From Selaginella tamariscina (Eukaryota > Streptophyta > Lycopodiopsida > Selaginellales > Selaginellaceae), in NCBI GenBank assembly GCA_003024785.1, contig PUQB01000328.1, positions 217,370-281,369 on the forward strand: a stretch of 64,000 bases of DNA, given 5' to 3'. Within the stretch, counting starts at the first letter, position 1. Each line of letters starts with the position of its first letter. Of the stretch, positions 2,050 to 62,743 are shown in pieces. The translations under genes were made by a program, and so were the position numbers. A model generated the notes under the pieces. That model ran no database searches, was not told the origin of the DNA, and saw nothing but the letters and a program-made list of their open reading frames with translations.

Positions 2050-2363
2050 TAATACTCTGTCTTCTTCATATGTCACAAATCCAAAGGTTCAACCCCAATC
2101 TTTTGGTGGTGATCTAAGAGATAATATATACCACTAGTTTGATCATTTTTAAGTTATTATTCGTTATCATGGTTAGGATGAGGCTCGTGCTTTCAGAGAA
2201 TTCTTTACATATTTAGAAGGTCCAATGCTCAAATGTATAATGGATTGACTGTGAAGATTTAAGTTAATAGTAATCGACTGACGGAATGCCTCAAATGTAT
2301 GTTTGATAAAGTTGAGAACTTAGATGATGTTTTTCAATAATTGCATGCAATACAACAACATAT
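2050..2363 (+). pseudogene. Left half of a retrotransposon gag-like remnant split by the DNA element
   Basis: Decayed coding-like sequence reading toward LHAIQQHM at the boundary of the 15-kb element. The sequence just right of the element (17386 on) continues as RMVNEFSQVVQHAQAQDAEV in the same frame if one AT dinucleotide is removed as the target duplication. Seen directly: helical, Q-rich sequence with stop codons. Inferred: one gag-like coiled region interrupted by the element. The assignment to gag is weak because the C-terminal gag features are missing. Confidence 0.4.
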
Positions 2364-2388
2364 GCAAGTTGTAACTAAAATGGGCATG
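2364..2388 (+). repeat. Left terminal inverted repeat (copy 1)
   Basis: Twenty-five bases starting GCAAGTTGTAACTAAA and ending GGGCATG. They pair with 17359-17383 except at positions 4 (A/C) and 17 (A/G). The same 25 bases start the second copy at 55412. Confidence 0.85.
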
Positions 2389-2866
2389 GCTATAGTCCCA
2401 TTTCCTAATAATTAGCAATTTTAGCTATTTAATTAGCATTTTCTAATATTAAAGGAATATTCTTTAGAATATATGTTTGAAAAGAGAATATTCTTTAGAA
2501 TATTCTATTTTGTATTCTACCCTTTAATAAATTATAGCATTCATTGAACAAAAATTAATAACATTATAAAAGTAGAATGTATTAAATTATATAATAATTG
2601 CCTAATATAACAATTAAGGAAGAGCATAAGAGGTACATTATATAAATATTGATGTTGTTATTAAAATATTAATATTTAAATATAACATTATTAATTAAAA
2701 ATTTGTAGTAGTAATATATATATATAAAATCCTATAATAATATAGTCAATCTTCCATATCATTTTTTAAATTTATATAGTTAAGTATACAATTTGGTACT
2801 ATTATTAAAGAGTTTATAATAATTATGAATATTAAATATATGATATTTTATAATTTTGTAATTGCT
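2389..2866. other. Left subterminal AT-rich region
   Basis: Non-coding, AT-rich, lying between the left TIR and the stop codon of the candidate transposase. It contains three closely spaced GAATATTC palindromes at about 2455-2510. The same word recurs near the right end (about 17188-17220), so these may be transposase-binding subterminal motifs. Differences from the second copy here are mostly small A/T indels. Confidence 0.6.
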
Positions 2867-5800
2867 TTAAGCTTCAGAAAACATACATTCCCTTGCAGTT
2901 TTGTTAATCGTGACTTTATCAACGCTTCTTGACATCCACCCATATCGAATGGATTTAACATTTATAAAACATGCTGGGTCTTTTTGATTGGGAGACCATG
3001 TTTTCTCTAGGCATCCATTATATCTTTCGCTCTCCTTCTCGTGTCGCCTTTTTTGTGGTTTGAACCATGCAACCTTAACAATACTATTTTTTGTGATTAC
3101 TTCAGGTGTGTCGATAATTTGACCCATCCAAATAGGCTGATTATATGACGCATCTGGAGTAATGAGAACCATCATTAGTTTTTGAAGATCCTTGCAGCAA
3201 TCAAAGTATGCTTTAGGTTTTTGGTTCCTTTGTCCAACAAAGTGTGGGGTTTGCACTTCCACATCACTACTGGCTTCTATGTCGTCTGCTCAGTGATGTC
3301 ATTTCAATCTCCTCTCGCCACCTTGTTTTAGGCCAGAAAGGGTGTTGCAATTCTGTACTTGTGACAGTAGGCCCTTCCAACTCTCGAACAACAGTCTCCC
3401 AATAGTTGACCACATGCTTATATAGTTCTGAGTAACCAGTTGCCTTATCAGAATTCTTTGGCATCGATTTTTGAACCCATGCCACATATTTTTTGATGCC
3501 ATCAATAATAACCTCTTGTTCCTTGAGCTGGGCACTCAATGGAATAGGGTCTGGTTGTCCTTCTGGGAGAAGTGGCTTTCCATCCTCTCCACTTTTGAAG
3601 AGCATTAAGCCCTCTTTCGGTAACCACTCCTGCTCTGATGGCCGTAACTTGTACTGCATAATAGGTATACCATCTCGTATGGAGAAAAAGAATTGTAGCG
3701 GCACAAGGTGACCAACTAAAGAATCACTCCCTTCTTTTATATACTCCTTGAGAAATTTTTTGAAGTCTGGCACCTCAGTCACAAGCAAAGCACAACTTTT
3801 TTTGGAGATGCAATTTTCAAAAAGATTCATCATATGCGGTAAGGTAAGTGCACTTGTCCTTTTTGTAGAGTTGGAGACCTTGCTGAAGAACGCATCAATA
3901 TCTTCATGAGTGTGACCAACCATAAGGAAACTGAGCGTGATTGTTTCAAACACACCTTTGGCAACAAGCATTGACAAGTATGCTAGCACATATCTAGAAA
4001 ATAAAAGTAAGTATGAGCTTGAGAAACCCTTAAGTAAAATGATTTACCTATTTTTGTTCTCGCCTGCACAATTATCCATCTGTAAAAGCAAATGACGAGG
4101 AAGCTTATTTGATGTTGAGGACACATGTACACTATTTGAGCTAGATCCCTCCACTGAACCTGAACTCTCAACAGGGCCATCTGTTTTTTGTGCAGGTTGC
4201 TGACAATGCCTCTCATATTCCCAAGTAGCCTCAAGTGCAGACGTGTTCATGAGAGCATTATGTAAAGGTTGAAGGTGTTGTTTCTTCACTTTGAGATCAC
4301 TGATAGGACTTGTCTGTGAGTGGGCTTCAAGGTTTCTGAAACACATGGCTAACGACCCAATAGTGAAATTGGAGTCGCTAGACCAATGTGGAAGTGAAAA
4401 GTGTCCATATGACTCACAACCGTGTCCATGTGTTAGCACACCTGTCAATGAAATCGGAAGTTTCATGACATTTCCAAGGCACTTTGGTGTTGCAAAGAGC
4501 TTTGGAATGCTGGTCTTTGAATGATCCATCTTGTCATGGATCAAGCACAGGTACTCTGATGGGCGTGACACAGAAAGCATGCGGTGTGCATAGTACTGAG
4601 ACCGACAAGTTTGTTGTGCAATCATGTGGGCCTCCATCTTCCTTTGAATGGTAGTGATCTCCACCAAGGTTTTTGCACAAGCCTCTGCAGCCTTCAATGA
4701 TGTACAAGTGTCACACTTAGAAAAGCTAGAGTGTTTTGCAATCTCCACATCCTTAAAATGAGTATTCCATATGTTGTTGAAGGTACCAGTGCAGATTGCT
4801 TGGAGCCCCATCAAACTGAGGCACTTGTTCACATGTTCACACAGTTTCAATTGAGTGTAGATTGAAGGTAAAACCTTGAGATTTTCCCTGACCCCTGCAT
4901 TTGTGGTTCGGCATTTGTGAGGCATCCTGTCTGCATTTGCTTCCACAAAAGCCTTGAGTATCTCTATGGCTGCCATGATGTGAGAGCGGGTTTTGACCAA
5001 GCGAGTGTTCCCATGAACTGAGGTTCGCGCTCCATCTAGCCACTCATCCCTCCGACGGTAGAACGTGGTCTTTGGGATCCCGTATATACTGTACCAAGCT
5101 TTGAAGCAGATGGCCACCTTATTAAATACCATGGATGTACTCTGATAACCTGTGTCCGAGGCCATTCCATCAATACACCCAGTTAGTGCAGCATATACAA
5201 ACTCATGCCTTTGCTTTTGGGTGAGCATACGAAAGACATGTCTACATTGGGTAATTTCATTCCGGTCTGCCATCTGACAACACTTCTTCTTGCAACAGTC
5301 AATCGTGGAAATGCTCGTAACACTTTCGGAAGATGTAGGATCCATCTTTACCCTCTTGCTGAAACTTGCAGGGGAAGATCTACAACCCATGAATCGCCTT
5401 TTTCTTACAATAGGACCAATGCAAGGAACCTCTTCAAATATGAGTTGTTCTTCCGGGTTGTTATTATTGAAATCCAACCCAGAATATGTTGAACCATCTT
5501 GCCGTCTTAATTCAGATGTTCGCCACCTCACGAGGGATCCAGGATACAATGTGCCATTAGGTGAAACCTCTGTCACAACTACACCCACGAAGTCGGACCC
5601 TAGTTTCTCTTCTGACACTGCTTCCATTGGATTTATAGCTGTGATGATGCCTCTTCCGACTTCAATCTCACGAAGAAAGAGAATCACCTCATCCATCACA
5701 GCAGGCAAGCCATCATCTGGTAAACTCGTGCTACTATTTGTTTGTGACTCTGCATATTCTGTGTCAGCCTTGACTTCATCCAAATTCCACAATACAGGAG

Positions 5801-5984
5801 AACCCTCCTCAAATTCCATTCCCAGAACCTCAACATGCTTGTAAATGGTGTTCACCCATACGTACACACAAGATCCTTGGGCAATATTGTGACATGATGC
5901 ATTATTATCTCGAACTTCCACAGTTCCAGTGCCAACTATCTCGTTGTTCCGAAGAAGACATACTTTATCTCCAGTATTAAACAT
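2867..5984 (-). CDS. Candidate DDE-like transposase (DUF7869-like), copy 1, broken late in exon 2
   Basis: Leftward gene with a long exon (4048-5990), a 54-nt GT-AG intron (3994-4047) and a last exon ending at 2867. The first ATG is at 5984. Visible parts, counted from 5996: two related beta-rich segments at about residues 10-75 and 105-165, a Cys cluster DCCKKKCC near 233, an HTH-like stretch near 300-320, a CDTC pair near 428, acidic LIHDKMD near 485-491, then QMDNCAGENKN at 639-649. The motif MVGHTHEDID follows directly after the intron. The spaced D, D and E/D residues resemble an RNase H-fold transposase; this arrangement is that of proteins annotated DUF7869, from memory. Copy 1 is intact through the 650-residue exon but lacks two bases (AT) at 3287/3288 compared with copy 2, which shifts the last ~130 codons. 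Function is inferred from motifs and the TIR context. Confidence 0.7.
3994..4047 (-). other. 54-nt intron in the candidate transposase (copy 1)
   Basis: On the minus strand the donor reads AATAG/GTAAATC and the acceptor TTTTCTAG/ATATGTG. Splicing joins ENKNR to YVLAYLSMLV and keeps the frame between the two halves of the conserved core. The intron is identical in length in copy 2 (57045-57098). Confidence 0.75.
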
Positions 5985-5990
5985 ATTGTC

Positions 5991-6138
5991 CTGCACATAA
6001 ATAATTGTATTATTTATGATATCTGTTTATGCAATATTTTTAAGAAATCTGAATTACGGTTACTTAATAATATGCATATGCAATAATACATAATTATGTT
6101 TAGAGATAATATCTCATGTTTGATTAATACAACTGATG
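5991..6138. other. AT-rich spacer, probably intronic
   Basis: The transposase reading frame is preceded on the minus strand by ATGTGCAG/GACAATATG, a good splice acceptor. The sequence upstream is AT-rich with no ATG-led frame joining it. It may therefore be the 3' end of an intron leading back across palindrome array A. Confidence 0.4.
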
Positions 6139-6935
6139 GGCGGGATTAATCCCGCCACGAATCCCTCCGACGAGGAACGGTCGGCGGGATTAATCCCGCC
6201 GCCGACTCAACCCCTTCGGAGAGAGTCGGCGGGATTAATCCCGCCTTGGACTCCCTCCGACAAGGAAGAGCCGGCGGGATTAATCCCGCCGCCTCTTCCT
6301 CGGGGGAGTCCGGCGGGATTAATCCCGCCGACTCTCTCCGACAGGAGAGTCCGGCGGGATTAATCCCGCCGACTCCCTTCCTCTCGGAGAGAGTCCGGCG
6401 GGATTAATCCCGCCGGACTCCTCCGACAGGAAGAGTCCGGCGGGATTAATCCCGCCGACTCTCCTCCCGGGAGGTCGGCGGGATTAATCCCGCCGGACTC
6501 CCTCGACGAGGAAGGCGGCGGGATTAATCCCGCCGGCTCTTCCTTGTCGGAGGAGTCGGCGGGATTAATCCCGCCCACAATTCTTACGACGGGGAATGGG
6601 TGGCGGGATTAAACCCGCACATAACTCTCTCCAAAACTATGATTTCAAAGAGATCTCGGGATAAATCCTGTCCCCAAATCTTAAAACAGGGTGGTGGCGA
6701 GATTAATCCCGCCACCCCTTCCCTGCCTCCTAAAATGGTTGGCGGGATTAATCCCGCCGACAACTCTTTCTAATAAATTCTGGTAACTCTTCATCAGTTG
6801 AGAAGGTTATCGACGGGATTAATCCCGCCACTCTTTTTCAGTGGCGGAGAAGCATTGCCCGAGATGGTGGCGGGATTAATCCCGCCACCTCTTCGAAAGA
6901 GCGAAAAAGAAATGGCCGGATTAATCCCGCCGCCC
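6139..6935. repeat. Palindrome array A (copy 1)
   Basis: Tandem-like array of the perfect 18-bp palindrome GGCGGGATTAATCCCGCC. Eleven perfect sites start at 6139, 6183, 6228, 6273, 6312, 6353, 6397, 6439, 6477, 6517 and 6558, with start-to-start spacing of 38-45 bp (about four DNA turns). Degenerate or truncated copies follow to 6935 (GGCGAGATTAATCCCGCC, for example). Spacers carry CTCCGACNAGGAAGAG-like sequence. Open frames across the array encode only reiterated GGINPA and AGLIPP peptides because the palindrome reads alike on both strands, so they are not genes. Confidence 0.9.
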
Positions 6936-7087
6936 CGTTAACCTAGAATATTAAGTTAAAAGGATATTTAAACGGATAAATCCCTAACGGAATATATTAT
7001 AATCCTAATGCCCTAAATTGTAATTTTAAGAGAGAATGTAAGAGAGTGAATCTTATAAGTATTTTTAAATTTGTTTATAATACTTAC
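6936..7087. other. AT-rich spacer after array A
   Basis: No coding signal. On the minus strand it would form the 5' part of a ~1.1-kb intron if the candidate exon at 7088-7163 is real. Confidence 0.35.
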
Positions 7088-7163
7088 TTGTAAACAGCAC
7101 TGAAGGCGCCGTGCTTTCCTATAAAGAATAGCACCCAATTTAATCTCGCTCCTGAGATGATCA
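7088..7163 (-). other. Candidate upstream exon of the transposase gene (copy 1)
   Basis: Minus-strand segment bounded by a pyrimidine-rich acceptor (TTTTTTCTTCATAG) and a near-perfect donor (CAA/GTAAGTATT). Joined to the acceptor at 5991 it stays open in the transposase frame (…RRLQCCLQ then DNMFNTGD) and would put array A inside a 1,097-nt intron. It has no ATG itself, so another exon would be needed upstream. The segment is conserved in copy 2 (59997-60072). This is splice-signal inference only. Confidence 0.35.
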
Positions 7164-7349
7164 CTATGAAGAAAAAAGAAGATCTAAAGAGTGAAAAATA
7201 CAGAAATGAAGAAACCCTTGCCGGAGAAAGAACCAGATCTGAATTTGAGTGGGAAATTAAATGCATTTTCAAATTTACATGTCAGACCGACAATACATAT
7301 GTCAGAAATTCAAATTTTTTAAAAAGAACAGAAAATAAAATTTAAGATG

Positions 7350-8280
7350 AGTTGACACAAATATCCGACACTCTGACATATATACTCTCCAGTTCCAATG
7401 AGTATTTTAAAATTGCATTTAATGTTATTCAAGTGATTCAAGCTGTTTAATATTACGAAATTTTAGACTATATTCTACATTCTTAGTATTCAAGTATATT
7501 TTATATATATATATATAAATATATACTTATACAATAAATAAATTGATATATTATTATGTATCATTTAAAATATATTCATAGTCTGTTTATTATTATTATT
7601 TTCTTAATTACTCGAGTATTTAGTTTTCATTTCCTAGTATCAATGGGATATTCTTTAATATTTTATTAATATTTGAAGAATATTCTAATATTAAACCTGA
7701 TTATCATAATTAAATTAGTCTTGTTCTTAATTATTGCAGTAATTATTCTACATTTGTATATATTAATGGGATTTTCTCAATTAATTTGTTATTATTTCAA
7801 GAATATTCATGTGTTAAACCTTATTATCAATATTAAATTAATACACACTATGAACATATTTTAAATTATACATAATAATACATCATTTTATCTAATATAT
7901 AGTCATATATAGTTTTAATAATATATATATTAATATCATTTCCTTAATTACTTGAGTAATTAATCTTCTTTATATTAATGGGATATTCTTTATTATTTTC
8001 TTATTATTCCAAGAATATTCCAATATTAAACATGATTATGATAATTAATTTAGTTAATTATTTGAGTACTTAATTTACATTTGTATATATTAATGGGATT
8101 TTCTCAATTAATTTCTTATTATTTCAAGAATATTTCAATGTTAAACCTTTTTATCAATATTAAATTAATATATATTATTAAAACTATATATGGCTATATA
8201 TTAGATAAAATCATATATTATTATGTATAATTTAAAATATGTTCATAGTGTGTTTATTAATATTATTTTCTTAATTATTC
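7350..8280. repeat. AT-rich region with a diverged ~325-bp direct repeat
   Basis: No gene. Two stretches recur about 325 bp apart: one starting TATTAATGGGATATTCTTTA (about 7640 and 7971) and one starting TATTAATGGGATTTTCTCAA (about 7760 and 8087). The whole region is retained in copy 2 with small indels. Confidence 0.6.
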
Positions 8281-9300
8281 GATGTTTGTTTTGCACACAT
8301 ATATAAACACAATCATAAATTTACACACGCATTACAAGAACTTACAAAAACACATATGCACACACATGCACAACCCTAAACCAAACTGAAGAAATATGTT
8401 GCTTCTTTATTGAAAACATCATGTTCAACGCATGTATGATATATGTACTCAATCTGTGTGTATGTAACACATTGAATTTACATGTGTAATATTTATATTA
8501 AGCTTGTTGGGAGCAAACCCTAAACCCTAAACCCTAAACCCTGTGTATACATGTGTGTACAAAAATAATTTTTCAACACTCTCTCTTCACACCATGCATG
8601 ATCCATCCTAAACCCTAAACCCTAAACCCTAATATGTAACACAATGAATTTACTCATGTAATATGTATGTATGTCTGTGTGTATACACGTGTGCATGTAT
8701 ATATGTGTACTTGTATGTATATATGTGTACTTTCTGTCTTCTCTCATACATACACACCATGCATGATCCATGTTAATATGTACTGTCTCTCTTCTCTCAA
8801 ACATACACACCATGCATGATCTATAATATGTACTCGGTCTCTCTAATATTATGTACTAATGTATGTATGTATGTCTGTGTATAATACACACCATGCATGA
8901 TCCATAATATGTACTGTCTCTCTTCTCTCATATACTATGTATGTATATCTGTGTATAATATGTGTAAGTATATATGTGTACTAATATATGCAATGTGTAC
9001 AAAAATAATTTTTCAACACTCTCTCTTCTCTCATACATACACACCATGCATGATCCATCCTAAATCCAAAACCCTAAACCCTAAACCCTAAACCCATGTA
9101 ATATGTATGTATGTCTGTGTGTATACACGTGTGTATGTATATATTATGTGTATTAATATATGCAATGTGTATGTATGTATTGATACACATGAAACTTTAA
9201 CACTCTCATGGACACACACATGTTAAATCCCTGCATGATTTATATTTTTGGGGTGTATGTGATACACCCACGCACACGCACGCGCTAATAATATAATGAA
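8281..9300. repeat. Microsatellite region with telomere-like CCCTAAA blocks (copy 1)
   Basis: Three short runs of the plant telomere word CCCTAAA occur at about 8515-8542, 8607-8632 and 9069-9094. They are embedded in GTATGTATGT-type repeats and a recurring CACACCATGCATGATCCAT segment (about 8589, 8755, 8807, 8887, 9041). All are shared with copy 2, so they belong to the DNA element and are not a chromosome-end fusion. No gene. Confidence 0.75.
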
Positions 9301-9484
9301 AGAATATTCGTTTAGGGCGAATCTATATTTTATTCTTTTTAGGGTTTAAGTATATTCTCAGAAGGAATATTCTATTAGGGTTAATATATATATTTAATTC
9401 CTTTAGGGTTTAGGTATATTCTTAGGGTTTCAAGAGGCGGCGGCTGTGAAATCGGCGGCGGCGGCTGTGCACACAGGTGAGATC

Positions 9485-9485
<1 letters not shown>
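9301..9485. other. GC-rich, exon-like patch
   Basis: An abrupt AGAGGCGGCGGCTG / GGCGGCGGCGGCTG patch at 9432-9470 ends in CACACAG/GTGAGATCTG, a consensus-like splice donor. Upstream are GAATATTC and TTTAGGGTTT words. It could be a short untranslated first exon or chance. No long reading frame. Confidence 0.2.
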
Positions 9486-9515
<30 letters not shown>

Positions 9516-9781
9516 ATATGTATAGGAGTGTGCGTATAAATTTATTTATTAGTTTTATCTCTCGCACACACACGCACACTCCTGTGTATGTATATGTGTG
9601 TGTGGGTGTGTGTTTGTTTATCTGTATGATTTTATTTGTTTCGCTCACACACGCATACACACGATATACATATACACATATATATATATACCTATATACA
9701 TATATACATACATATATTATGTGTACCAGTATCTGTAAATTTTTTTTTATTGATCTATCTCTCCCACACACACGCACATGC

Positions 9782-9847
<66 letters not shown>

Positions 9848-10604
9848 ATATAATGCATATTAACAAATAGTATACAACACTAGTTTATATATGCTTATAT
9901 ATTCATATGGGTTATATATCTATATAACACATATATATATGTGTGTTTTTTATCTGTATAATTTTATTTATTTATTAGTTTTATCTCTCGCACACACACG
10001 CACACTCCTGTCCTGTGTATGTATATGTGTGTGTGTGTGTGTTGTTTATTTGTATGATTTTATTTGTTTTGCTCACACACAGCATACACACAATATACAT
10101 ATACACTATATATATACCTATATACATATATACATACATACAACACTAGTTTATATATGCTTATATATTCACAGACTCTCTCTCTTTCTCTATGGATTAT
10201 ATATCTATATACACACATATATATGTGTGTGTTTATCTGTATAATTTTATTTATTTATTAGTTTTATCTTTCGCACACACACGCACACTCCTGTGTATAT
10301 ATATGTGTGTGTGTGTGTTTGTTTATCTGTATGATTTTATTTGTTTCGCTCACACGCATACACACGATACATATCATACACACATATATATACCTATGTA
10401 CACACATATATTATGTGTACCAGTACTGTATAATTTTATTTATTTATCTATCTCTTGCACACACACGTACACTCCTATACATACATACATATAATATATA
10501 ATATATAATATTATTACACACACACATATATATATGTGTGTGTTTTTATCTGTATAATTTTTTTATTTATTAATTTTATCTCTCGCACACACGCTAAGCC
10601 CTCG
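9486..10604. repeat. Large dinucleotide microsatellite block (copy 1)
   Basis: Alternating TG/CA and TA runs with diverged tandem units that each carry a CTCGCACACACACGCACACTCCTG-like word and a GTATAATTTTATTTATTTATTAG-like word (recurring near 9540, 9950, 10230 and 10430). The open frames give only HTHTHT/YIYIYI peptides. No gene. Confidence 0.85.
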
Positions 10605-12225
10605 AGCGCGATTAATCCCGCCGTTATAGGTTTATAGCCTCGGCGGCGGGGATTAATCCCGCCGCTATATGGTTGGGGCCATGGCGGCGGGATTAATCCC
10701 GCCGCCGAGGCCCTTCACGCAGGCTATGGGCGGCGGGATTAATCCGCCGCTCTACGACAAACCGAAGAGCGGCGGGATTAATCCCGCCGCCCATGGCCTG
10801 CGTGAGGGGCCTCGGCGGCGGGATTAATCCCGCCGCTCACCCATGCCCTGCGCGGAATGCGGGATTTATCTCGCCGGCAATGGCCTGTGTGAAGGCCCTA
10901 ATGGGCGGGATTAATCCCGCCGGATTCCGCGCGGGCATTTACAGGGGATGGGCGGCGGGATTAATCCCGCCGCTCATGAGGCTAACCGAAGAGCCTGCAT
11001 GAAAGATCCTGCACGGAAGGCTAACCGAAGAGCCTGCATGACATGTCCTGCGCGTAAGGCGGCGGGATTAATCCCGCCGCCCAGGGAATTCACGCAGGAC
11101 ATGAACGCGGGATTAATCCGGCCCCACGCTCATGCCCTTCGCGGAGGGCGGCGGGATTAATCCCGCCGCTCAGGCACTTCCGCAGGATATAAGCGGCGGG
11201 ATTAATCCCGCCCCCACCCATCCCTGTTCAAAATGCCGCAGCCAATATATATGTGTGAGCGCATGATTTACGAGAGGGCGGCGGGATTAGTCTCTCCGAA
11301 CCTTCATTACCCGGTGGCGGGATTAATCCCGCCACCCTTCTTTTTTCCTCCATTGGTATGTTGAATCAATCCCGACTAACTCTGTCTGAGACGGAGAAGG
11401 TTTACAAAATACCAATGGAGGGAACTGAGAAGGGTGGTGGGATTAATTTCACCATCCCTTACATGGTGGGCGGGATTAATCCCGCCGCGTACGCATGCCC
11501 TGCGCGGAATCGGGCGGGATTTATCCCGCCGCCATTGGCCTGCCTGAAGGGCCTAGGCGGCGGGATTAATCCCGCAAGATTTCGCACAGGGCATTGGCGT
11601 TCGGCGGGATTAATCCCGCCGACTAAGGCCTGAGTGAAGGGCCTGGGACGCGGGATTAATCGCCGGTACGCATGCCCTGCGGAATCGGGCGGGATTTATC
11701 CCGCCGCCATTGGCCTGCCTGAAGTGCCTAGGCGGCGGGATTAATCCCGCCCGATTCCGCGCAGGGAATTGGCGTCCGGCGGGATTAATCCCGCCGCATA
11801 GGGACCGAGTGAAGGCCCTGGGCGGCGGGATTAATCCCGCCGAGTCTTCAATGCCTGTTGGAGGAATGAATCCCGCCACCCTTCTTTGTTTTCTCCATTG
11901 GTGAGTCGGACCAATCCCAAACGTTTCTGTCTGAGACGTAGAAGGTTTTCAACATACCAATGGAGAGAATTGGGAAGGGTGGGGAAATTCATTTAACCAT
12001 CATTACATGGTGGGCGAGATTAATCCCGCCCCCTTTCTGGAGTCACTGAAGGGGTGTGAGAAATAAATCCTGCCCAGTTCTCTCTGAGAAACCGAGAAGG
12101 GTGGCAAGATTAATTCCGCACTCCCGTTCAAGGCCTCCAGAGGCATTGAAGGGGTGGCGAGATTAATCCCGCCACTCTTTCAGGAGGCATTGAAGGGGTG
12201 GCGAGATTAATCCCGCCGCACCTTC
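10605..12225. repeat. Palindrome array B (copy 1)
   Basis: About two dozen copies of GGCGGGATTAATCCCGCC or close variants (GGCGGGATTTATCTCGCC, GGCGAGATTAATCCCGCC), more degenerate toward the right. Spacers differ from array A: they carry GGCCTGCGTGAAGGGCC-type sequence, present in both orientations (compare 10697-10725 with the reverse complement of 10785-10815), so larger units are themselves inverted. Peptides read through it are artefacts of the repeat. Confidence 0.88.
11345..11424. repeat. Foldback repeat inside array B (first of two)
   Basis: CCTCCATTGGTAT on the left pairs with ATACCAATGGAGG on the right across a ~50-nt loop containing TCTGTCTGAGACGGAGAAGG. A diverged second copy lies at about 11891-11969, showing that this hairpin-capable unit was duplicated within array B. 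Confidence 0.6.
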
Positions 12226-12332
12226 CATGTGAATATATATGTGTATTAGTATATATAAGTTGCATATCTCATTTTATTTACTTTTATCATCTTATCATAA
12301 TATTTCGAGTAAAAGCTAGGAATCTATGTAAA

Positions 12333-12417
12333 ACTGTCCAGAGCTCACATTTGTGGTGGTTCTAAAACGAAATGTTATCTTTCTTTTGCACTAACACAAA
12401 TGTGAGCTTCGGACAGT
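12333..12417 (+). ncRNA. miRNA-sized hairpin candidate
   Basis: Arms 12333-12355 and 12395-12417 (23 nt each) are complementary except for two adjacent bases, separated by a 39-nt loop. The pairing core is AGCTCACATTTGTG with CACAAATGTGAGCT. It lies between array B and the ParB-like gene. It could be a small-RNA precursor, a foldback regulatory site or a relic inverted repeat. I do not recognise a known plant miRNA. Confidence 0.35.
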
Positions 12418-12559
12418 TAATTACGTCTACTTCTCTCTGTGTATTATTTTTGTATATTCGGGTTTATACAAGTGTGTGTGCGTTTTTATATAATTTATAT
12501 TTATAGTGTATTATTTTGCAGAAGGACGATTTGATCAAACAAGGAGATCGAGTCATTAG

Positions 12560-15500
12560 TATGGAGTCGTCGTCAAATTCTGGGTAAGAATTAAAATAAA
12601 ATCTGTTATACTCGGATACTTGAACTAATCATTTTTGTATTCAGATGTGGAATTGAGGTGACATTAAAGACAAGAGCAGGAGAAGAGATGGGCAGGGGGA
12701 TTCTGGAATCAACTTGGCCATATTTTAAGATAAATGGGAAGCGCATTGGAGCAACCATGGCTGCTGTCAAATTAACCTCTGTCACATCTCATGGACAAGC
12801 AAAACAATGGAAAGTAGATTCGCTAGTCAAGCACCCGAAAGCAGGCTGCGAACCCAGATTGGACGATGCTCGACACATATGCCTTGTTCCATCCAATGTC
12901 ACGTTCTCGGATCCAGAGGTCGTCAGTTACAACATTAATTTCGGGTGGTTTTGTCGACTTGTGGATAATGACGTTCACGTGTTCACTAATGATGTTGACC
13001 TTGGAGTTCTTCTTCAACTCAACGAAAGCCCATCTATGGAGGGGATCCATCTGGATGTCTACTTCGAAAATCTTCAGACTCATCGAGTAGGTGTATTGTC
13101 AGGAGATATTGCTTCACAATACAGAAAATCAGCAAGTGAGCAATCTCCCTCTTCACATTGAAGAAGAACACAGCGACATCATAATGGAGATTGAGAGGGT
13201 GGCTCGGTCTCAGGTTCTCTACAGATCACGTTCAATTTGCTTAGGGAGCTTTGGGAGCTGGAAGAGTGTACCGAGAACACTAGAACAGCTGCAGTCGGGG
13301 ATCACACATGTTGATTCGGATCGCAAAAGAAAATCATCAATCGTTTTGTCAGCTGCACCTGTGGCATCTCATGCTGCAATAAGTCACAAGGAAATGATGT
13401 TGGATGATAAGATTTATCCTTGTAGGGTTAAATATTGCAGCGTCAACCCAAACTTCAATTACAGGCCACTCAACCAGGAACGTGTAGCTGAGCTCATGGA
13501 GAAGATGAAGGACGACAATTCTTATACCGTTCCACATAATGCTGTTTTGTGTCCATACTATGAAAGAAGGAAGGGCGCTGACAAAGTCTGGATCACAACA
13601 CCAGAACAACTCATGAAGATTCAGACGGAGAATAAAAAATCTATCAAGTACTACATCATTAGTGGCCAGCACACAATAACGGCAGCCCAACGACTTCTCG
13701 AGGAACACAACAAAGGAACGATGGCAACAAAACTTTCCGAGCATACCCGTGAGAAGCTGACAAAAAGATCGGCGTTTTTAGCTAAGCCGAATCTCACAAT
13801 CGAGCAGTACCATAAGTTATCGGCGGAATGGGACGCTGCCGACACCAACCACTACAACAGCAAAATATGGGAGAAGTTTAAACACACGCGAGCCGTGTGG
13901 GAATCTCTTCAGCGACCACAAAGAGCTACCGCAGGGAATACACAATCTGCGGAATACCGGGTAAGCAAATTGTTTGGGCGGGATTTATCTCGCCGGTATA
14001 TTAATCTGTCTTTTTCCTCAGAGAGTTGAAGAAATTGCAGCAGTTGATTTTGCCCAGGTGGGCGGGAAGGAAACATCCTTTCTGATGATGTTGATTTCTT
14101 GCCCCGAAGATACTTTGCCAAATGGTTGGGGATTATGGAATCCTTTTCAAAAGGAACACTGAAGAAGAAGCAGACAAGTGAAGGGGAGCCCTCAGAAAAG
14201 TCTGCAAAGAAACCCAGTAAGACGCCGAAGGCTAAGTCTGTTCAATCTACAAAGGATGTAGACAACGATTTCAAGCTCACATGGTTGAAGCCTTTAAATG
14301 GAACAACGATGGAGGAGATGGAAGTCTTGGCTGATTTGGTGATCGATGGCAAACTACAAATTAATAACAGCAGCCCAACCTCTCCTTTTCATCTCAAGGC
14401 AATGGAGTTGAAGACGGTCAGGCATTTCAAGGAGTGGTTGGGAATACACTGCCACAAACTGGGTTGGACCTCGACTTCAACATATGAAGAGGTCAGCAAA
14501 TATTTGCATGTGACGAACGATGATATGCTTGTCGAATGGGTGAACCAATCGGAAGATCTGGGCAAGAATCTATTGCACGCCAACGCCAAAAAGGAGAACA
14601 TTGGGATGACGCCTTCTCTTATGGCAGTCCTTCAGCAGCGGAGAACCGAATTGAACCTTATAAAGGAGGATGCTACAAATCACGACAAGCCCTACAGATG
14701 TTTGTTGTTAGATTCGGAGACTTTATGGGTAACATCACTGCTTGTAGGAAACCGTTTCAATTGTTCGTGATGGATCGGCGGGTGTCAAAAAATCTTTCGA
14801 CAGATAGGGCACTAGAGGATCTGGTGGAGAAACTTAGCCGTGCAAGCATATACATAGAAGGTATTTATTATTGAATTCATGCTTGCGCTCTTCACTGATA
14901 CCTACTTTTTCAGGTATTTATTTCTTGATTCTTGCTCATGTCACCGATACTTTTGCCTTCGCCTTCGCCAAGAAGAATAGACATCGTTGGACAGGATTTT
15001 ATATGAACGATGCTAATCCCAAGTGCATTGATACCGTTGTTCACTTGGTTGTTAGGAATGCGCCAAACAATTTCAAGCTTCCAAATGACTGGCCAGGCAT
15101 CTGTTTGCACTCCAACGGCCCTGAACCTCCATCCGATACACCGATAGGTATGAGTGACGTATTCGACAATGTACGTTATCCAAACATTACAAGTCAAGCG
15201 GCACGGAGCATCGTCAACTTGATTAGGGGTCCTCACAGTGATGCGTGGGTTTTTGACTACTGCACTAGGGGGTCCGTCTTGAAGGAGTGTTACCTTCGGC
15301 ATACATGTGTGTTTGCCGTTGAAAAGGATAAGACCATGGTTGAGGACCTGAACAAGTGGATAGATTGGGTCTCAACTGAGTACCCCAACGATTCCATAAA
15401 GGCGTATTTGAGAAAGTTCCCTCCAGATAAGTGCGATAGCTCTGAAGGTGAATCTGGTTCAATCTCGGAGTCTGAGAACGAACTTCAATCAGATATTAGA

Positions 15501-15659
15501 CCGGAAGTTATCTCGAGGAGTACAGAACATTCGCACACTCCAGGACCCATGGAAACATCAATAGAAGATGCAGAAGATCTTGAACCATCTCACAAGCGGC
15601 TTAGACCTTCTTCGCCTCACTCAGAAGGTAATAGCGAAGAAGAATTGATAATGAATTGA
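12560..15659 (+). CDS. ParB/sulfiredoxin-like protein with a degenerate methyltransferase-like C-terminus
   Basis: Spliced gene of about 959 codons. Proposed exons: 12560-12582, 12645-13086, 13133-13960, 14022-14860 and 14914-15659; introns are 62, 46, 61 and 53 nt, all GT-AG. The start is the ATG at 12560, since splicing phase makes MESSSNSG run into CGIEVTLK. Residues ~1-155: unknown beta-rich domain. Residues ~248-350: ParB-like, with FNYRPLNQERVAELMEKM and ISGQHTITAAQRLLEE in the place of the usual G-x-R-R box. Residues ~655-850 match the C-terminal layout of beta-class N4/N6 DNA methyltransferases: MDRRV where DPPY is expected, then ARSIVNLIRG followed by VFDYCTRGSV and FAVEKD. The catalytic motif is lost, so activity is unlikely. 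An acidic Ser/Glu tail ends the protein. Two apparent one-base deletions (near 14081 and 14690, both at short homopolymers) break exon 4. Role in the transposon is inferred. Confidence 0.55.
12583..12644 (+). other. Intron 1 of the ParB-like gene (62 nt)
   Basis: TCTGG/GTAAGAATT at the donor and TTTTGTATTCAG/ATGTGG at the acceptor. The phase-2 junction restores an uninterrupted frame with the ATG at 12560. Confidence 0.65.
14861..14913 (+). other. Intron 4 of the ParB-like gene (53 nt) with duplicated boundaries
   Basis: Donor AAG/GTATTTATT, acceptor CTTTTTCAG/GTATTTATT. The 11-nt word AGGTATTTATT is present at both boundaries (14859-14869 and 14912-14922), as expected if the intron arose by a small tandem duplication or insertion. 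Confidence 0.6.
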
Positions 15660-15863
15660 TAGAGTGACGAATAGTTGTAAATGAGTGTAACATAAGGCAT
15701 TTTTGTATATTTCTTTTATATTTGTACAGAAAATAAATTCTCAAGGATTAATGAAGCTTTTAGTTCAAACATGGGTCACACATTAACAAGGTAAATAATA
15801 TACCTTGATAATTTTAAGGTCAGCTAATTATCATTTTGCAGATGTAATGAAATAATTGAGAAC
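15660..15863. other. Intergenic spacer between ParB-like and HAD genes
   Basis: About 200 bp of AT-rich sequence with AATAAATTC-like words at 15730 that could serve polyadenylation of the upstream gene. The next gene starts in the same direction. Confidence 0.4.
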
Positions 15864-17097
15864 ATGGATTTTCAGCATTGCCATGAGGTAAGAGAGGGGT
15901 TTGGCGACAATTTCTTGTGCCACATGTCAGAATGACAGAGTTCATGCAGGAAATGGATAATAATGCAGCTCAAAACATCGTTACCATGGGGGCCACTTCA
16001 TCATCATTTTTATTGGCTTCAGTTCCGAAATCAATTTCTTCAGCGCATGCAATATCTGAATCTTGTAAGGATGATGTACAATTAAATGATGAAGGGATAG
16101 GCAACGAGATAGTGGCAACGGATAAATGTGAAAGGGAGCAAACAAGTGATTTGCAAAGTATTCAAGAGGCAACGCCATCTCATGTTACTCATGGCCATAT
16201 TGTGTTGTTGGATGTCAATGGTGTTCTGCTTCATCGACAAAGGCCCCAGGATAGAAAAAAGAAATCAAACAAGGAGATTTCATTCCTTGTCATGGTAAAT
16301 TTCGATATGATATTATTTTTCGTCCAGGGTTGGATCGTCTCTTTCAAAAGCTTAAGGAGATGGGTGCGCTTGTGGGGATTTGGTCATGCATGCAGATTCA
16401 TAACTTAACACCGCTGTTGAATTTACTTAAGAAACATTGTAGTGTTGCAGAAGAGGTGATTCGTAAAGATTGGATTTTTGACCAGCGAATGTGTCATAAA
16501 CCTCTCGAATTTCAGAATATAAGAAAGGAAAGCAAGCCATACTTCTTCAAGAATGAAAGAATAATTGGGACTCATGGGGAGATCAGTCGCTTAAGGATAA
16601 TGAAGAACGCACAGATGTTAGTAGTAGACGACTCTCCTCAGAAGGCTATGCTCAACCAAAACATTGCTTGTATTCATCCAATCACTTTCGATCCATATTC
16701 TGATACCGATATCATGGATGAGCTAGTGAACTACTTGGATACGTGCCTCAGAAAGAAGAATCTCGAAAATTTTTGTGAGCAGTATCCACCGTATCATACA
16801 TTTCCTGAAGCTTTTCTTTCTCGTGATATTGAATTTTATAAAATGAAGGATAGCAACCGGGCGCTTTATAATATTATTCTTAAGGAACGTCAGTTTTTAG
16901 ATGAGCCTTTATGCAGACCTTCTCTTATCACATCTTATGTATTAACAAGGATGGCAACTCCCAATTGCATTCGTGAGAGTGTTAAGTGGTGGCAACAACA
17001 TCAAGATATTGACCAAAATGATTTGATTAATCCGGAGAGTGATGATTTAGACAAAATGAAAAGATTTCTTTGTATGATAGAAAGAAAGTATTTATAA
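15864..17097 (+). CDS. FCP1/NIF-like HAD-superfamily phosphatase
   Basis: About 390 codons. Exon 1 is 15864-15887 (MDFQHCHE), followed by a 62-nt intron (15888-15949, GTAAGAG…CATGCAG) and a long exon to the TAA at 17097. Residues ~9-90 are low complexity. The HAD/FCP1 core follows: HIVLLDVNGVLLH (nucleophile Asp ~96, with Asn at +2 where FCP1 has Asp), GLDRLFQKLKEMGALVGIWS, KPYFFKNERIIG and MLVVDDSPQKAM (~231-242), then FDPYSDTDIMDELVNYLDTCL. Plant FCP1-like proteins with LDLNG in this place exist, so Asn may be normal for the subfamily. The frame needs one extra A in the A6 run at 16255-16260. This is probably a captured plant gene riding in the transposon; its substrate is unknown. Confidence 0.7.
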
Positions 17098-17358
17098 AAA
17101 ATTAACATGTTGATAAGAAAATGATTTCATTTGTAATTATGTTTGATAGTATTTCTTCATTATTGTAAACTATTTTTAGAATAATATGAATATTCTAAGA
17201 TATTTTAGGAATATTCCTTACTAAGTAAGGTTATTGAAGGATTAATTAATTAATTAATTAATATTTAAGGCTTAATTACATATTAATTAAATGATTAATT
17301 AATAATTAAAACTTAAGTATTAATTAGTAATTTATTTTATATTCCCATTTTCACGTAT
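17098..17358. other. Right subterminal AT-rich region
   Basis: Non-coding, with GAATATTC words at about 17188-17220 and a long TTAATTAA-type run at 17240-17300. It mirrors the base composition and GAATATTC content of the left subterminal region. Confidence 0.55.
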
Positions 17359-17383
17359 CATGCCCACTTTAGTTACAACGTGC
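17359..17383 (-). repeat. Right terminal inverted repeat (copy 1)
   Basis: The reverse complement begins GCACGTTGTAACTAAA and ends GGGCATG, matching the left end at 23 of 25 bases. AT follows at 17384-17385. Confidence 0.85.
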
Positions 17384-17385
17384 AT

Positions 17386-55409: not shown

Positions 55410-55411
55410 AT

Positions 55412-55436
55412 GCAAGTTGTAACTAAAATGGGCATG
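55412..55436 (+). repeat. Left terminal inverted repeat (copy 2)
   Basis: Identical to 2364-2388. The sequence left of it is unrelated to the left flank of copy 1 except for the AT dinucleotide. Confidence 0.85.
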
Positions 55437-55915
55437 GCTATAGTCCCATTTCCTAATAATTAGCAATTTTAGCTATTTAATTAGCATTTTCTAATATTAA
55501 AGGAATATTCTTTAGAATATATGTTTGAAAAGAGAATATTCTTTAGAATATTCTATTTTGTATTCTACCCTTTAATAAATTATAGCATTCATTGAACAAA
55601 AATTAATAACATTATAAAAGTAGAATGTATTAAATTATATAATATATTGCCTAATATAACAATTAAGGAAGAGCATAAGAGGTACATTATATAAATATTG
55701 ATGTTGTTATTAAATATTAATATTTAAATATAACATTATTAATTAAAAATTTGTAGTAGTAATAATATATATATAAAATCCTATAATAATATAGTCAATC
55801 TTCCATATCATTTTTTAAATTTATATAGTTAAGTATACAATTTGGTACTATTATTAAAGAGTTTATAATAATTATGAATATTAAATATATGATATTTTAT
55901 AATTTTGTAATTGCT

Positions 55916-58900
55916 TTAAGCTTCAGAAAACATACATTCCCTTGCAGTTTTGTTAATCGTGACTTTATCAACGCTTCTTGACATCCACCCATATCGAATG
56001 GATTTAACATTTATAAAACATGCTGGGTCTTTTTGATTGGGAGACCATGTTTTCTCTAGGCATCCATTATATCTTTCGCTCTCCTTCTCGTGTCGCCTTT
56101 TTTGTGGTTTGAACCATGCAACCTTAACAATACTATTTTTTGTGATTACTTCAGGTGTGTCGATAATTTGACCCATCCAAATAGGCTGATTATATGACGC
56201 ATCTGGAGTAATGAGAACCATCATTAGTTTTTGAAGATCCTTGCAGCAATCAAAGTATGCTTTAGGTTTTTGGTTCCTTTGTCCAACAAAGTGTGGGGTT
56301 TGCACTTCCACATCACTACTGGCTTCTATGTCGTCTATGCTCAGTGATGTCATTTCAATCTCCTCTCGCCACCTTGTTTTAGGCCAGAAAGGGTGTTGCA
56401 ATTCTGTACTTGTGACAGTAGGCCCTTCCAACTCTCGAACAACAGTCTCCCAATAGTTGACCACATGCTTATATAGTTCTGAGTAACCAGTTGCCTTATC
56501 AGAATTCTTTGGCATCGATTTTTGAACCCATGCCACATATTTTTTGATGCCATCAATAATAACCTCTTGTTCCTTGAGCTGGGCACTCAATGGAATAGGG
56601 TCTGGTTGTCCTTCTGGGAGAAGTGGCTTTCCATCCTCTCCACTTTTGAAGAGCATTAAGCCCTCTTTCGGTAACCACTCCTGCTCTGATGGCCGTAACT
56701 TGTACTGCATAATAGGTATACCATCTCGTATGGAGAAAAAGAATTGTAGCGGCACAAGGTGACCAACTAAAGAATCACTCCCTTCTTTTATATACTCCTT
56801 GAGAAATTTTTTGAAGTCTGGCACCTCAGTCACAAGCAAAGCACAACTTTTTTTGGAGATGCAATTTTCAAAAAGATTCATCATATGCGGTAAGGTAAGT
56901 GCACTTGTCCTTTTTGTAGAGTTGGAGACCTTGCTGAAGAACGCATCAATATCTTCATGAGTGTGACCAACCATAAGGAAACTGAGCGTGATTGTTTCAA
57001 ACACACCTTTGGCAACAAGCATTGACAAGTATGCTAGCACATATCTAGAAAATAAAAGTAAGTATGAGCTTGAGAAACCCTTAAGTAAAATGATTTACCT
57101 ATTTTTGTTCTCGCCTGCACAATTATCCATCTGTAAAAGCAAATGACGAGGAAGCTTATTTGATGTTGAGGACACATGTACACTATTTGAGCTAGATCCC
57201 TCCACTGAACCAGAACTCTCAACAGGGCCATCTGTTTTTGTGCAGGTTGCTGACAATGCCTCTCATATTCCCAAGTAGCCTCAAGTGCAGATGTGTTCAT
57301 GAGAGCATTATGTAAAGGTTGAAGGTGTTGTTTCTTCACTTTGAGATCACTGATAGGACTTGTCTGTGAGTGGGCTTCAAGGTTTCTGAAACACATGGCT
57401 AACGACCCAATAGTGAAATTGGAGTCGCTAGACCAATGTGGAAGTGAAAAGTGTCCATATGACTCACAACCGTGTCCATGTGTTAGCACACCTGTCAATG
57501 AAATCGGAAGTTTCATGACATTTCCAAGGCACTTTGGTGTTGCAAAGAGCTTTGGAATGCTGGTCTTTGAATGATCCATCTTGTCATGGATCAAGCACAG
57601 GTACTCTGATGGGCGTGACACAGAAAGCATGCGGTGTGCATAGTACTGAGACCGGCAAGTTTGTTGTGCAATCATGTGGGCCTCCATCTTCCTTTGAATG
57701 GTAGTGATCTCCACCAAGGTTTTTGCACAAGCCTCTGCAGCCTTCAATGATGTACAAGTGTCACACTTAGAAAAGCTAGAGTGTTTTGCAATCTCCACAT
57801 CCTTAAAATGAGTATTCCATATGTTGTTGAAGGTACCAGTGCAGATTGCTTGGAGCCCCATCAAACTGAGGCACTTGTTCACATGTTCACACAGTTTCAA
57901 TTGAGTGTAGATTGAAGGCAAAACCTTGAGATTTTCCCTGACCCCTGCATTTGTGGTTCGGCATTTGTGAGGCATCCTGTCTGCATTTGCTTCCACAAAA
58001 GCCTTGAGTATCTCTATGGCTGCCATGATGTGAGAGCGGGTTTTGACCAAGCGAGTGTTCCCATGAACTGAGGTTCGCGCTCCATCTAGCCACTCATCCC
58101 TCCGACGGTAGAACGTGGTCTTTGGGATCCCGTATATACTGTACCAAGCTTTGAAGCAGATGGCCACCTTATTAAATACCATGGATGTACTCTGATAACC
58201 TGTGTCCGAGGCCATTCCATCAATACACCCAGTTAGTGCAGCATATACAAACTCATGCCTTTGCTTTTGGGTGAGCATACGAAAGACATGTCTACATTGG
58301 GTAATTTCATTCCGGTCTGCCATCTGACAACACTTCTTCTTGCAACAGTCAATCGTGGAAATGCTCGTAACACTTTCGGAAGATGTAGGATCCATCTTTA
58401 CCCTCTTGCTGAAACTTGCAGGGGAAGATCTACAACCCATGAATCGCCTTTTTCTTACAATAGGACCAATGCAAGGAACCTCTTCAAATATGAGTTGTTC
58501 TTCCGGGTTGTTATTATTGAAATCCAACCCAGAATATGTTGAACCATCTTGCCGTCTTAATTCAGATGTTCGCCACCTCACGAGGGATCCAGGATACAAT
58601 GTGCCATTAGGTGAAACCTCTGTCACAACTACACCCACGAAGTCGGACCCTAGTTTCTCTTCTGACACTGCTTCCATTGGATTTATAGCTGTGATGATGC
58701 CTCTTCCGACTTCAATCTCACGAAGAAAGAGAATCACCTCATCCATCACAGCAGGCAAGCCATCATCTGGTAAACTCGTGCTACTATTTGTTTGTGACTC
58801 TGCATATTCTGTGTCAGCCTTGACTTCATCCAAATTCCACAATACAGGAGAACCCTCCTCAAATTCCATTCCCAGAACCTCAACATGCTTGTAAATGGTG

Positions 58901-59034
58901 TTCACCCATACGTACACACAAGATCCTTGGGCAATATTGTGACATGATGCATTATTATCTCGAACTTCCACAGTTCCAGTGCCAACTATCTCGTTGTTCC
59001 GAAGAAGACATACTTTATCTCCAGTATTAAACAT
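55916..59034 (-). CDS. Candidate DDE-like transposase, copy 2, frameshift before the core
   Basis: Same gene as at 2867-5984. Here the last exon is intact: 374 codons from VLAYLSMLVAKG through MVGHTHEDID to MFSEA. The first exon has T5 instead of T6 at about 57234-57238, which shifts the frame after residue ~604 and removes QMDNCAGENKN from the reading. The two copies are thus broken at different places. The 54-nt intron is at 57045-57098. First ATG at 59034. Confidence 0.7.
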
Positions 59035-59188
59035 ATTGTCCTGCACATAAATAATTGTATTATTTATGATATCTGTTTATGCAATATTTCTAAGAAATCT
59101 GAATTACGGTTACTTAATAATATGCATATGCAATAATACATAATTATGTTTAGAGATAATATCTCATGTTTGATTAATACAACTGATG

Positions 59189-59835
59189 GGCGGGATTAAT
59201 CCCGCCCACGAATCCCTCCGACGAGGAACGGTCGGCGGGATTAATCCCGCCGCCGACTCAACCCCTTCGGAGAGAGTCGGCGGGATTAATCCCGCCTTGG
59301 ACTCCCTCCGACAAGGAAGAGCCGGCGGGATTAATCCCGCCGCCTCTTCCTCCTGGGGGAGTCCGGCGGGATTAATCCCGCCGACTCTCTCCGACGAGGA
59401 AGAGTCGGCGGGATTAATCCCGCCGCCGCTCCCTTCGGAGAGAGTCGGCGGGATTAATCCCGCCCACAATTCTTACGACGGGGAATGGGTGGCGGGATTA
59501 AACCCGCACATAACTCTCTCCAAAACTATGATTTCAAAGAGATCTCGGGATAAATCCTGTCCCCAAATCCTTAAAACAGGGATGTGGTGGCGAGATTAAT
59601 CCCGCCACCCCTTCCCTGCCTCCTAAAATGGTTGGCGGGATTAATCCCGCCGACAACTCTTTCTAATAAATTCTGGTAACTCTTCATCAGTTGAGAAGGT
59701 TATCGGCGGGATTAATCCCGCCACTCTTTTTCAGTGGCGGAGAAGCATTGCCCGAGAGATGGTGGCGGGATTAATCCCGCCACCTCTTCGAAGAGGCGAA
59801 AAAGAAATGGCCGGATTAATCCCGCCGCCCCGGTT
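59189..59835. repeat. Palindrome array A (copy 2), contracted
   Basis: Seven perfect GGCGGGATTAATCCCGCC sites start at 59189, 59234, 59279, 59324, 59365, 59407 and 59447, where copy 1 has eleven. The degenerate right part is retained, and one site that is mutated in copy 1 (CGACGGGATTAATCCCGCC) is perfect here (near 59704). Confidence 0.9.
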
Positions 59836-59996
59836 AACCTAGAATATTAAGTTAAAAGGATATTTAAACGGGATAAATCCCTAACGGAATATATTATAAT
59901 CCTAATGCATTCCTAAACCCCTAAATTGTAATTTTAAGAGAGAATGTAAGAGAGTGAATCTTTATAAGTATTTTTAAATTTGTTTATAATACTTAC

Positions 59997-60072
59997 TTGT
60001 AAACAGCACTGAAGGCGCCGTGCTTTCCTATAAAGAATAGCACCCAATTTAATCTCGCTCCTGAGATGATCA
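59997..60072 (-). other. Candidate upstream transposase exon (copy 2)
   Basis: Same acceptor and GTAAGTATT donor as 7088-7163, with no base change noticed. Conservation over this short time scale is weak evidence of function. Confidence 0.3.
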
Positions 60073-60249
60073 CTATGAAGAAAAAAGAAGATCTAAAGAG
60101 TGAAAAATACAGAAATGAAGAAACCCTTGCCGGAGAAAGAACCAGATCTGAATTTGAGTGGGAAATTAAATGCATTTTCAAATTTACATGTCAGACCGAC
60201 AATACATATGTCAGAAATTCAAATTTTTTAAAAAAGAACAGAAAATAAA

Positions 60250-61190
60250 ATTTAAGATGAGTTGACACAAATATCCGACACTCTGACATATATACTCTCC
60301 AGTTCCAATGAGTATTTTAAAATTGCATTTAATGTTATTCAAGTGATTCAAGCTGTTTAATATTACGAAATTTTAGACTATATTCTACATTCTTAGTATT
60401 CAAGTATATTTATATTATATATATATATATAAATATATACTTATACAATAAATAAATTGATATATTATTATGTATCATTTAAAATATATTCATAGTCTGT
60501 TTATTATTATTATTTTCTTAATTACTCGAGTATTTAGTTTTCATTTCCTAGTATCAATGGGATATTCTTTATATTTTATTAATATTTGAAGAATATTCTA
60601 ATATTAAACCTGATTATCATAATTAAATTAGTCTTGTTCTTAATTATTGCAGTAATTATTCTACATTTGTATATATTAATGGGATTTTCTCAATTAATTT
60701 GTTATTATTTCAAGAATATTCATGTGTTAAACCTTATTATCAATATTAAATTAATACACACTATGAACATATTTTAAATTATACATAATAATACATCATT
60801 TTATCTAATATATGTCATATATAGTTTTAATAATATATATTAATATCATTTCCTTAATTACTTGAGTAATTAATCTTCTTTATATTAATGGGATATTCTT
60901 TATTATTTTCTTATTATTCCAAGAATATTCCAATATTAAACATGATTATGATAATTAATTTAGTTAATTATTTGAGTACTTAATTTACATTTGTATATAT
61001 TAATGGGATTTTCTCAATTAATTTCTTATTATTTCAAGAATATTTCAATGTTAAACCTTTTTATCAATATTAAATTAATATATATTATTAAAACTATATA
61101 TGGCTATATATTAGATAAAATCATATATTATTATGTATAATTTAAAATATGTTCATAGTGTGTTTATTAATATTATTTTCTTAATTATTC
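60250..61190. other. AT-rich region (copy 2)
   Basis: Counterpart of 7350-8280 with the same internal ~325-bp repeat. No gene. Confidence 0.6.
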
Positions 61191-62210
61191 GATGTTTGTT
61201 TTGCACACATATATAAACACAATCATAAATTTACACACGCATTACAAGAACTTACAAAAACACATATGCACACACATGCACAACCCTAAACCAAACTGAA
61301 GAAATATGTTGCTTCTTTATTGAAAACATCATGTTCAACGCATGTATGATATATGTACTCAATCTGTGTGTATGTAACACATTGAATTTACATGTGTAAT
61401 ATTTATATTAAGCTTGTTGGGAGCAAACCCTAAACCCTAAACCCTAAACCCTGTGTATACATGTGTGTACAAAAATAATTTTTCAACACTCTCTCTTCAC
61501 ACCATGCATGATCCATCCTAAACCCTAAACCCTAAACCCTAATATGTAACACAATGAATTTACTCATGTAATATGTATGTATGTCTGTGTGTATACACGT
61601 GTGTATGTATATATGTGTACTCTGTATGTATATATGTGTACTTTCTGTCTTCTCTCATACATACACACCATGCATGATCCATGTTAATATGTACTGTCTC
61701 TCTTCTCTCAAACATACACACCATGCATGATCTATAATATGTACTCGGTCTCTCAATATTATGTACTAATATGTATGTATGTCTGTGTGTATAATACACA
61801 CCATGCATGATCCATAATATGTACTGTCTCTCTTCTCTCATATACTATGTATGTATATCTGTGTATAATATGTGTAAGTATATATGTGTACTAATATATG
61901 CAATGTGTACAAAAATAATTTTTCAACACTCTCTCTTCTCTCATACATACACACCATGCATGATCCATCCTAAATCCAAAACCCTAAACCCTAAACCCTA
62001 AACCCATGTAATATGTATGTATGTCTGTGTGTATACACGTGTGTATGTATATATTATGTGTATTAATATATGCAATGTGTATGTATGTATTGATACACAT
62101 GAAACTTTAACACTCTCATGGACACACACATGTTAAATCCCTGCATGATTTATATTTTTGGGGTGTATGTGATACACCCACGCACACGCACGCGCTAATA
62201 ATATAATGAA
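61191..62210. repeat. Telomere-like and microsatellite region (copy 2)
   Basis: CCCTAAA blocks at about 61427-61452, 61518-61540 and 61980-62004, in the same context as copy 1. Confidence 0.75.
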
Positions 62211-62394
62211 AGAATATTCGTTTAGGGCGAATCTATATTTTATTCTTTTTAGGGTTTAAGTATATTCTCAGAAGGAATATTCTATTAGGGTTAATATATA
62301 TATTTAATTCCTTTAGGGTTTAGGTATATTCTTAGGGTTTCAAGAGGCGGCGGCTGTGAAATCGGCGGCGGCGGCTGTGCACACAGGTGAGATC

Positions 62395-62690: not shown

Positions 62691-62743
<53 letters not shown>

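Follow-up and report, generated by a model that had tools for sequence, protein, structure and literature searches.

What kind of mobile element occupies positions 2362 to 17385 of this stretch of Selaginella tamariscina DNA, and what might the genes and repeats that it carries besides a transposase do for it? The stretch, hereafter the window, comprises 64,000 nucleotides (C647:217370-281369, ending at the contig end, C647:281369) of the 300.7-Mb assembly of 1,391 contigs that was used for the genome searches. The element is a real ~15-kb terminal inverted repeat (TIR) transposon, for which we corrected the boundaries. It is probably a giant DNA transposon of the cut-and-paste type that recently spread to more than 1,000 copies, and Sola is its most likely superfamily.

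Boundaries and terminal repeats

Copy 1 of the transposon covers positions 2362..17385 on the plus strand (15,024 bp), and its boundaries are common to other copies. It is bordered by a left TIR of 27 bp, ATGCAAGTTGTAACTAAAATGGGCATG (2362..2388, plus strand), and a right TIR of the same length (17359..17385, minus strand). The repeats follow the sequence ATGCA(A/C)GTTGTAACTAAA(A/G)TGGGCATG and pair at 25 of 27 bases, which extends the pairing of 23 of 25 bases on which the original prediction of this transposon was built. Copy 2 (55410..64000, plus strand), which is cut by the contig end and is 99.4% identical to copy 1 in the first 4 kb, starts at the same base, as had also been predicted. 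Among further copies, all chosen by a match to the left end, the left start base was identical in 20 of 20 and 9 of 9, as well as in both window copies. Both ends lie 2 bp further out than first proposed, since the flanking AT is part of the TIR.

A search with the left 239 bp gave a ~100% full-length match at 40 places and one partial match (the best 40 of 773 candidates scored). The same DNA search with the right-end 239 bp gave no match, probably since common words are skipped, and TIR patterns and gene pieces were used instead. Note that neither window copy is intact: copy 1 is frameshifted in transposase exon 2, gene A and gene B, and copy 2 in transposase exon 1 near its 3′ end, and the same parts are open in other copies.

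Target-site duplication

Right ends were sought in 26 copies besides the window copy and found in 19, giving 20 copies with both ends readable when the window copy is included; the duplication count omits the seven without a readable right end, and C246, C243 and C192 provided left ends only. An exact 4-bp duplication (ATAA, CCAT, AAGA, ATTT, ATGT, ATAT, TTAT, TTGT, AATG or ACTT) was present directly outside the ATGC...GCAT ends in 10 of the 20 copies, and random re-pairing of left and right flanks gave a mean of 0.16 such matches, with a maximum of 2 in 5,000 trials. Direct matches at other lengths were seen in one copy at 2 bp, in two at 3 bp and in none at 5-8 bp. Read by eye, C441 (ACGT) and C120 (ACTT) also show a duplication if one terminal base may vary, and C113 has a shifted TTTG duplication. 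No duplication was found in the remaining seven of the 20, namely the window copy, C618, C447, C440, C380, C91 and C3. The window copy, with flanks ACAT and AAGG and no 4-bp match, is thus a poor example of the element. Its flanks (2100-2361 and 17386-18000) place it in an apparent gypsy-like relic.

C602 and C618 each sit inside another copy of the element, so that the empty site can be read. The window copy shows this site unfilled as GCATAAGAGG, where C602 has GCATAA-[ATGCAAG...GTGCAT]-ATAAGAGG; the nested case C618 has no clean duplication. Whatever the target, the terminal AT is present on the left in all 20 copies and on the right in 18 of them. Because the nested C602 insertion shows both features, the AT belongs to the element and the target duplication is 4 bp. 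The earlier proposal that AT is a 2-bp target duplication was consequently rejected.

Copy number, linkage and age

Searches with the ends and the core gene recovered many copies across the genome. Specifically, exact matches numbered 2,926 for a 21-bp TIR core (1,482 + 1,444), 1,817 for a 28-bp transposase piece (895 + 922) and 1,454 for a 27-bp gene-A piece (711 + 743), and the reversed control of each gave none. Assuming two ends per full ~14.7-kb element, this corresponds to ~1,460 elements, or ~21 Mb and 7% of the assembly, an estimate that leans high because solo ends and truncated copies are also counted. Among the first 100 of the 2,926 ends listed, 28 facing neighbour pairs were found, of which 21 were spaced by 10.2-15.4 kb and seven by more; none was closer than 10 kb, so that no short deleted derivatives were seen in that sample. 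Gene A lay divergent from the transposase gene and 5-15 kb off for 51 of 96 listed transposase pieces, as against six each for the same-strand and wrong-side controls. As first predicted, this is a TIR transposon in which extra genes travel with a DUF7869 transposase.

The copies differ little from one another. In transposase exon 2, ten copies compared with window copy 2 had 0-2 substitutions per 1,122-1,128 bp; in exon 1, nine others compared with the window copy had 1-10 per 1,236-1,945 bp. The gene-B part had 1-16 substitutions per 799-808 bp in six copies, and for a 431-bp gene-B piece the 40 scored matches (the best 40 of 1,383 candidates) were all identical to the window. Single-base gaps are scattered among the copies and may be mutations or sequencing errors. 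Because the copies read differ so little, the spread to more than 1,000 copies is taken to be recent, with some older or diverged ones among them.

The transposase gene

In copy 1 the gene lies at 2867..5984 on the minus strand, with exon 1 at 5984-4048, a 54-bp intron at 4047-3994 and exon 2 at 3993-2867, the splice sites being read by eye. In copy 2 it lies at 55916..59034 on the minus strand, where exon 2 (~57044-55916) is open; these coordinates were obtained by offset from copy 1. Pfam PF25273 (DUF7869) matches both exons of the ~1,020-amino-acid (aa) protein, in agreement with the enzyme type first suggested. We collected 92 homologues, and relatives were found in Riccia. The window's own protein is represented by a homologue, P0001, whose structural model shows an RNase H/DDE fold with two conserved Asp residues and an acidic third site in GHTHEDID. 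The third acid may be E392, D393 or D395, which would make the triad DDE or DDD. Solved transposase structures match only moderately. On the strength of this modelled fold, the DUF7869 gene is the predicted transposase.

No relative of the transposase was found in viral contigs among 161 pattern matches. In genome contigs, 43 pattern matches led to three relatives on short contigs of metagenome-assembled genomes (MAGs), which we take for putative eukaryotic contamination. A DUF7869 protein with 30% identity to the query is encoded on L067, a contig of 4.3 kb that was assigned to a Synechococcales MAG and is probably a eukaryotic contaminant of the bin. No mention of DUF7869 was found in the literature searched, although print elsewhere may hold one.

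Superfamily assignment

Sola elements are described as having a DDD transposase, 4-bp target duplications, TIRs of 11-1124 bp and sizes of 2-9 kb, with some above 15 kb, and as occurring in the moss Physcomitrella (PMC10741241), for which a table records Sola1 (PMC9033089). The present element shares the 4-bp duplication (exact in 10 of 20 copies against a shuffled mean of 0.16), a DDE/D transposase (through the P0001 model), TIRs (27 bp) and a size within the described range (15,024 bp). We call it Sola-like, as it fits Sola reasonably well by described traits; Pfam names the transposase domain only as DUF7869. The original prediction had found no superfamily to name. For the 4-bp duplication, DDE/D enzyme, TIRs and size, Sola now offers one; genes A and B and the arrays are absent from the Sola descriptions in the relevant parts of PMC10741241 and PMC9033089. 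An extra protein is also known from Sola2 elements that have AT-rich 4-bp duplications and have captured Fanzor1 (PMC3627910), but their cargo is Fanzor1, whereas here it is a protein without known relatives together with a NIF/HAD protein.

It is also conceivable, though rather unlikely, that DUF7869 represents a separate DDE/D lineage, hence a new superfamily, which has the 4-bp duplication in common with Sola by chance. The silence of the searched literature on DUF7869, the only moderate match of solved transposase structures, and termini and cargo that match no nameable element are consistent with such a lineage, but every Sola trait that could be compared (duplication, enzyme, TIR and size) agrees. 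An element that duplicates 2 bp, like Tc1/mariner or ISL2EU, was suggested by the AT that adjoins the ends first proposed, but is next to impossible, given that this AT is kept at nearly all ends regardless of target, that four more bases are duplicated in ten copies and that in the nested C602 insertion the AT falls within the element. Tc1/mariner elements duplicate the 2 bp TA, and the duplication here is 4 bp. Mutator/MULE (Mutator-like element) transposons, including VANDAL, were likewise set aside: their duplication is 7-12 bp (PMC10741241), and none of the 20 copies had one at the lengths counted, 5-8 bp. An assignment to Sola is thus preferred.

Palindrome arrays and the central region

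Two arrays of an 18-bp palindrome, GGCGGGATTAATCCCGCC, lie between the divergent genes. Array 1 (6139..6931), in which the spacing is mostly 38-45 bp, and array 2 (10605..12217) lie upstream of the transposase gene and of gene A, respectively; ~155 bp separate array 1 from the transposase start codon, and ~344 bp separate array 2 from that of gene A. Allowing three mismatches, copy 1 contains 45 sites, of which 27 are exact, and no site was found in the window outside both copies or in 50 Markov sequences of the element; the arrays noted at the outset are thus a genuine feature. Eight of nine other copies contain 36-45 sites and C438 contains 16; the stretch used for the count ends elsewhere than at a right TIR in C926, C438 and C180. 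One site with three mismatches lies inside the gene A intron at 13961-14021.

In an alignment anchored on ATTAAT, 35-43 of 43 sites agree per position within the 18 bp, and 13-28 of 43 outside it. The flanks of ATTAAT are kept with at most two mismatches at 37 of 43 array sites, and at none of 17 outside the arrays even when four mismatches are allowed. The CpG observed/expected ratio is 1.15 and 1.03 in the arrays, 0.41 in the transposase gene, 0.74 in genes A and B, and 0.67 in the central region. Protein targets look like this, with a brief conserved word repeated in tandem ahead of two genes and spacers that have diverged. Probably, then, a protein of the element binds the arrays, and either gene A or the transposase is our candidate binder.

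Alternatively, the arrays may quite possibly be a functionless G+C-rich tandem repeat that grew by slippage or hairpins. Tandem repeats of variable copy number are common in transposons, and the array content does differ among copies. However, conservation is limited to the 18 bp while the spacers diverge, both arrays are upstream of the two divergent genes, and CpG is kept at 1.03-1.15 of expectation, compared with 0.41 in the transposase gene.

Between the arrays lies an A+T-rich central region (6932..10604, G+C 0.28) with tandem and inverted repeats, in which no gene is supported. Within it, the block at 7528-10600 has tandem units of 327 bp along with an AC microsatellite and inverted repeats.

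Genes A and B

Gene A (12561..15659, plus strand) encodes 976 aa in exons read by eye at 12561-12583, 12645-13960, 14022-14860 and 14914-15659; its reading frame is open in the C926 copy. A word-based protein search found no relatives at E ≤ 1e-3, which is weak evidence for an orphan because gene B, with a clear Pfam domain, also found nothing in that search at the same threshold. No Pfam family was found in gene A, a sequence search of the PDB gave nothing, and an AlphaFold2 model of a 194-aa piece had a pLDDT (predicted local distance difference test) of 44.6, too low for confidence.

Gene A had been labeled ParB-like, and a ParB/parS-like protein would bind the palindromes, spread, and partition or tether the element. 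The motif ISGQHTITAAQRLL presumably resembles a ParB box, and parS sites are typically short palindromes. Still, no ParB family was listed for gene A by Pfam, PHROGs or NCBIfam (E cut-off of 1 in one Pfam scan and 10 in the others, where HMMER filters discard most matches above E ~0.1, whatever the cut-off set), the fold model has low confidence, and a chromosomal transposon has no obvious need of partition. A literature search on ParB in plant transposons turned up only bacterial papers, none relevant. The label has a short motif as its basis, and such a role for gene A is very doubtful.

Gene B (15932..17097, plus strand) encodes a NIF/FCP1-type HAD protein of ~391 aa. It matches Pfam PF03031 with E 3.1e-9 and 37.2 bits (gathering score 21.8), as expected from the HAD phosphatase gene predicted among the cargo, and scores 14.3 bits with the NCBIfam dullard-like model, under its 139-bit cut-off. 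The PDB sequence search gave weak matches to p27 only (E 0.02 or worse). Phosphatase activity is uncertain because Asn replaces the second Asp in its motif LLDVNGV (LLDVNGVLL in full).

Proposed mechanism and comparison with known systems

Given the RNase H-type DDE/D core of the homologue model, the transposase would be expected to cut at the TIRs and join the element to the target with a 4-bp stagger. An element protein, with gene A and the transposase as the likeliest candidates, would bind the 18-bp palindromes in both arrays and thereby keep the promoters active or unsilenced, as VANC does on VANDAL tandem-repeat targets. Gene B may have an accessory role, either by acting on a phosphoprotein of the host or by serving as a binding module. 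Tentatively, we propose a sequence-specific anti-silencing or activator system encoded by a transposable element (TE) and independent of VANDAL/VANC, in which gene A of a non-Mutator, Sola-like element would bind the ~44 palindromes that precede the two divergent genes and so let a 15-kb element pass 1,000 copies.

For a TIR transposon that is very large and has spread recently, the analysis establishes where the element ends, what target duplication it makes, which genes it holds and how many copies exist, and it links DUF7869, an unnamed family, to transposition. The two extra genes and the arrays of a repeated word may help the element escape silencing. If the arrays are targets of an element protein, this would be a plant transposon with its own sequence-specific regulator, unrelated to VANDAL, and the element would be a natural reporter of how such transposons escape silencing. 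Other elements are also present in the window: Ty3/gypsy-type retrotransposon fragments with gag, protease, reverse transcriptase, RNase H and integrase domains occur on both strands at 29419-46868.

Binding of repeated motifs by an element protein has a precedent in TnpA of maize Spm, besides that of VANC. VANC, the better precedent of the two, is TE-encoded and binds motifs in the non-coding tandem repeats of its own TE, where methylation is lost, and these target repeats gain and lose units between TE copies (PMC5735166, PMC10398659). The Arabidopsis VANDAL elements, which are MULEs, resemble the present element in being multi-gene TEs with tandem motifs beside their own genes and a motif number that varies by copy. 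They differ in target duplication and transposase, and the VANC word in those accounts, YAGTATTAY, is unlike the G+C-rich 18-bp palindrome; the comparison covered the anatomy of the motif arrays. No Pfam family was found in gene A, hence no DUF1985/DUF287, and since VANDAL is Mutator-like and this element is not, the similarity would be convergent. The fungal transposons that carry TET/JBP genes, whose accessory gene is thought to counter silencing (PMC12730594), are likewise DNA transposons with an accessory gene, but differ in enzyme class and host kingdom.

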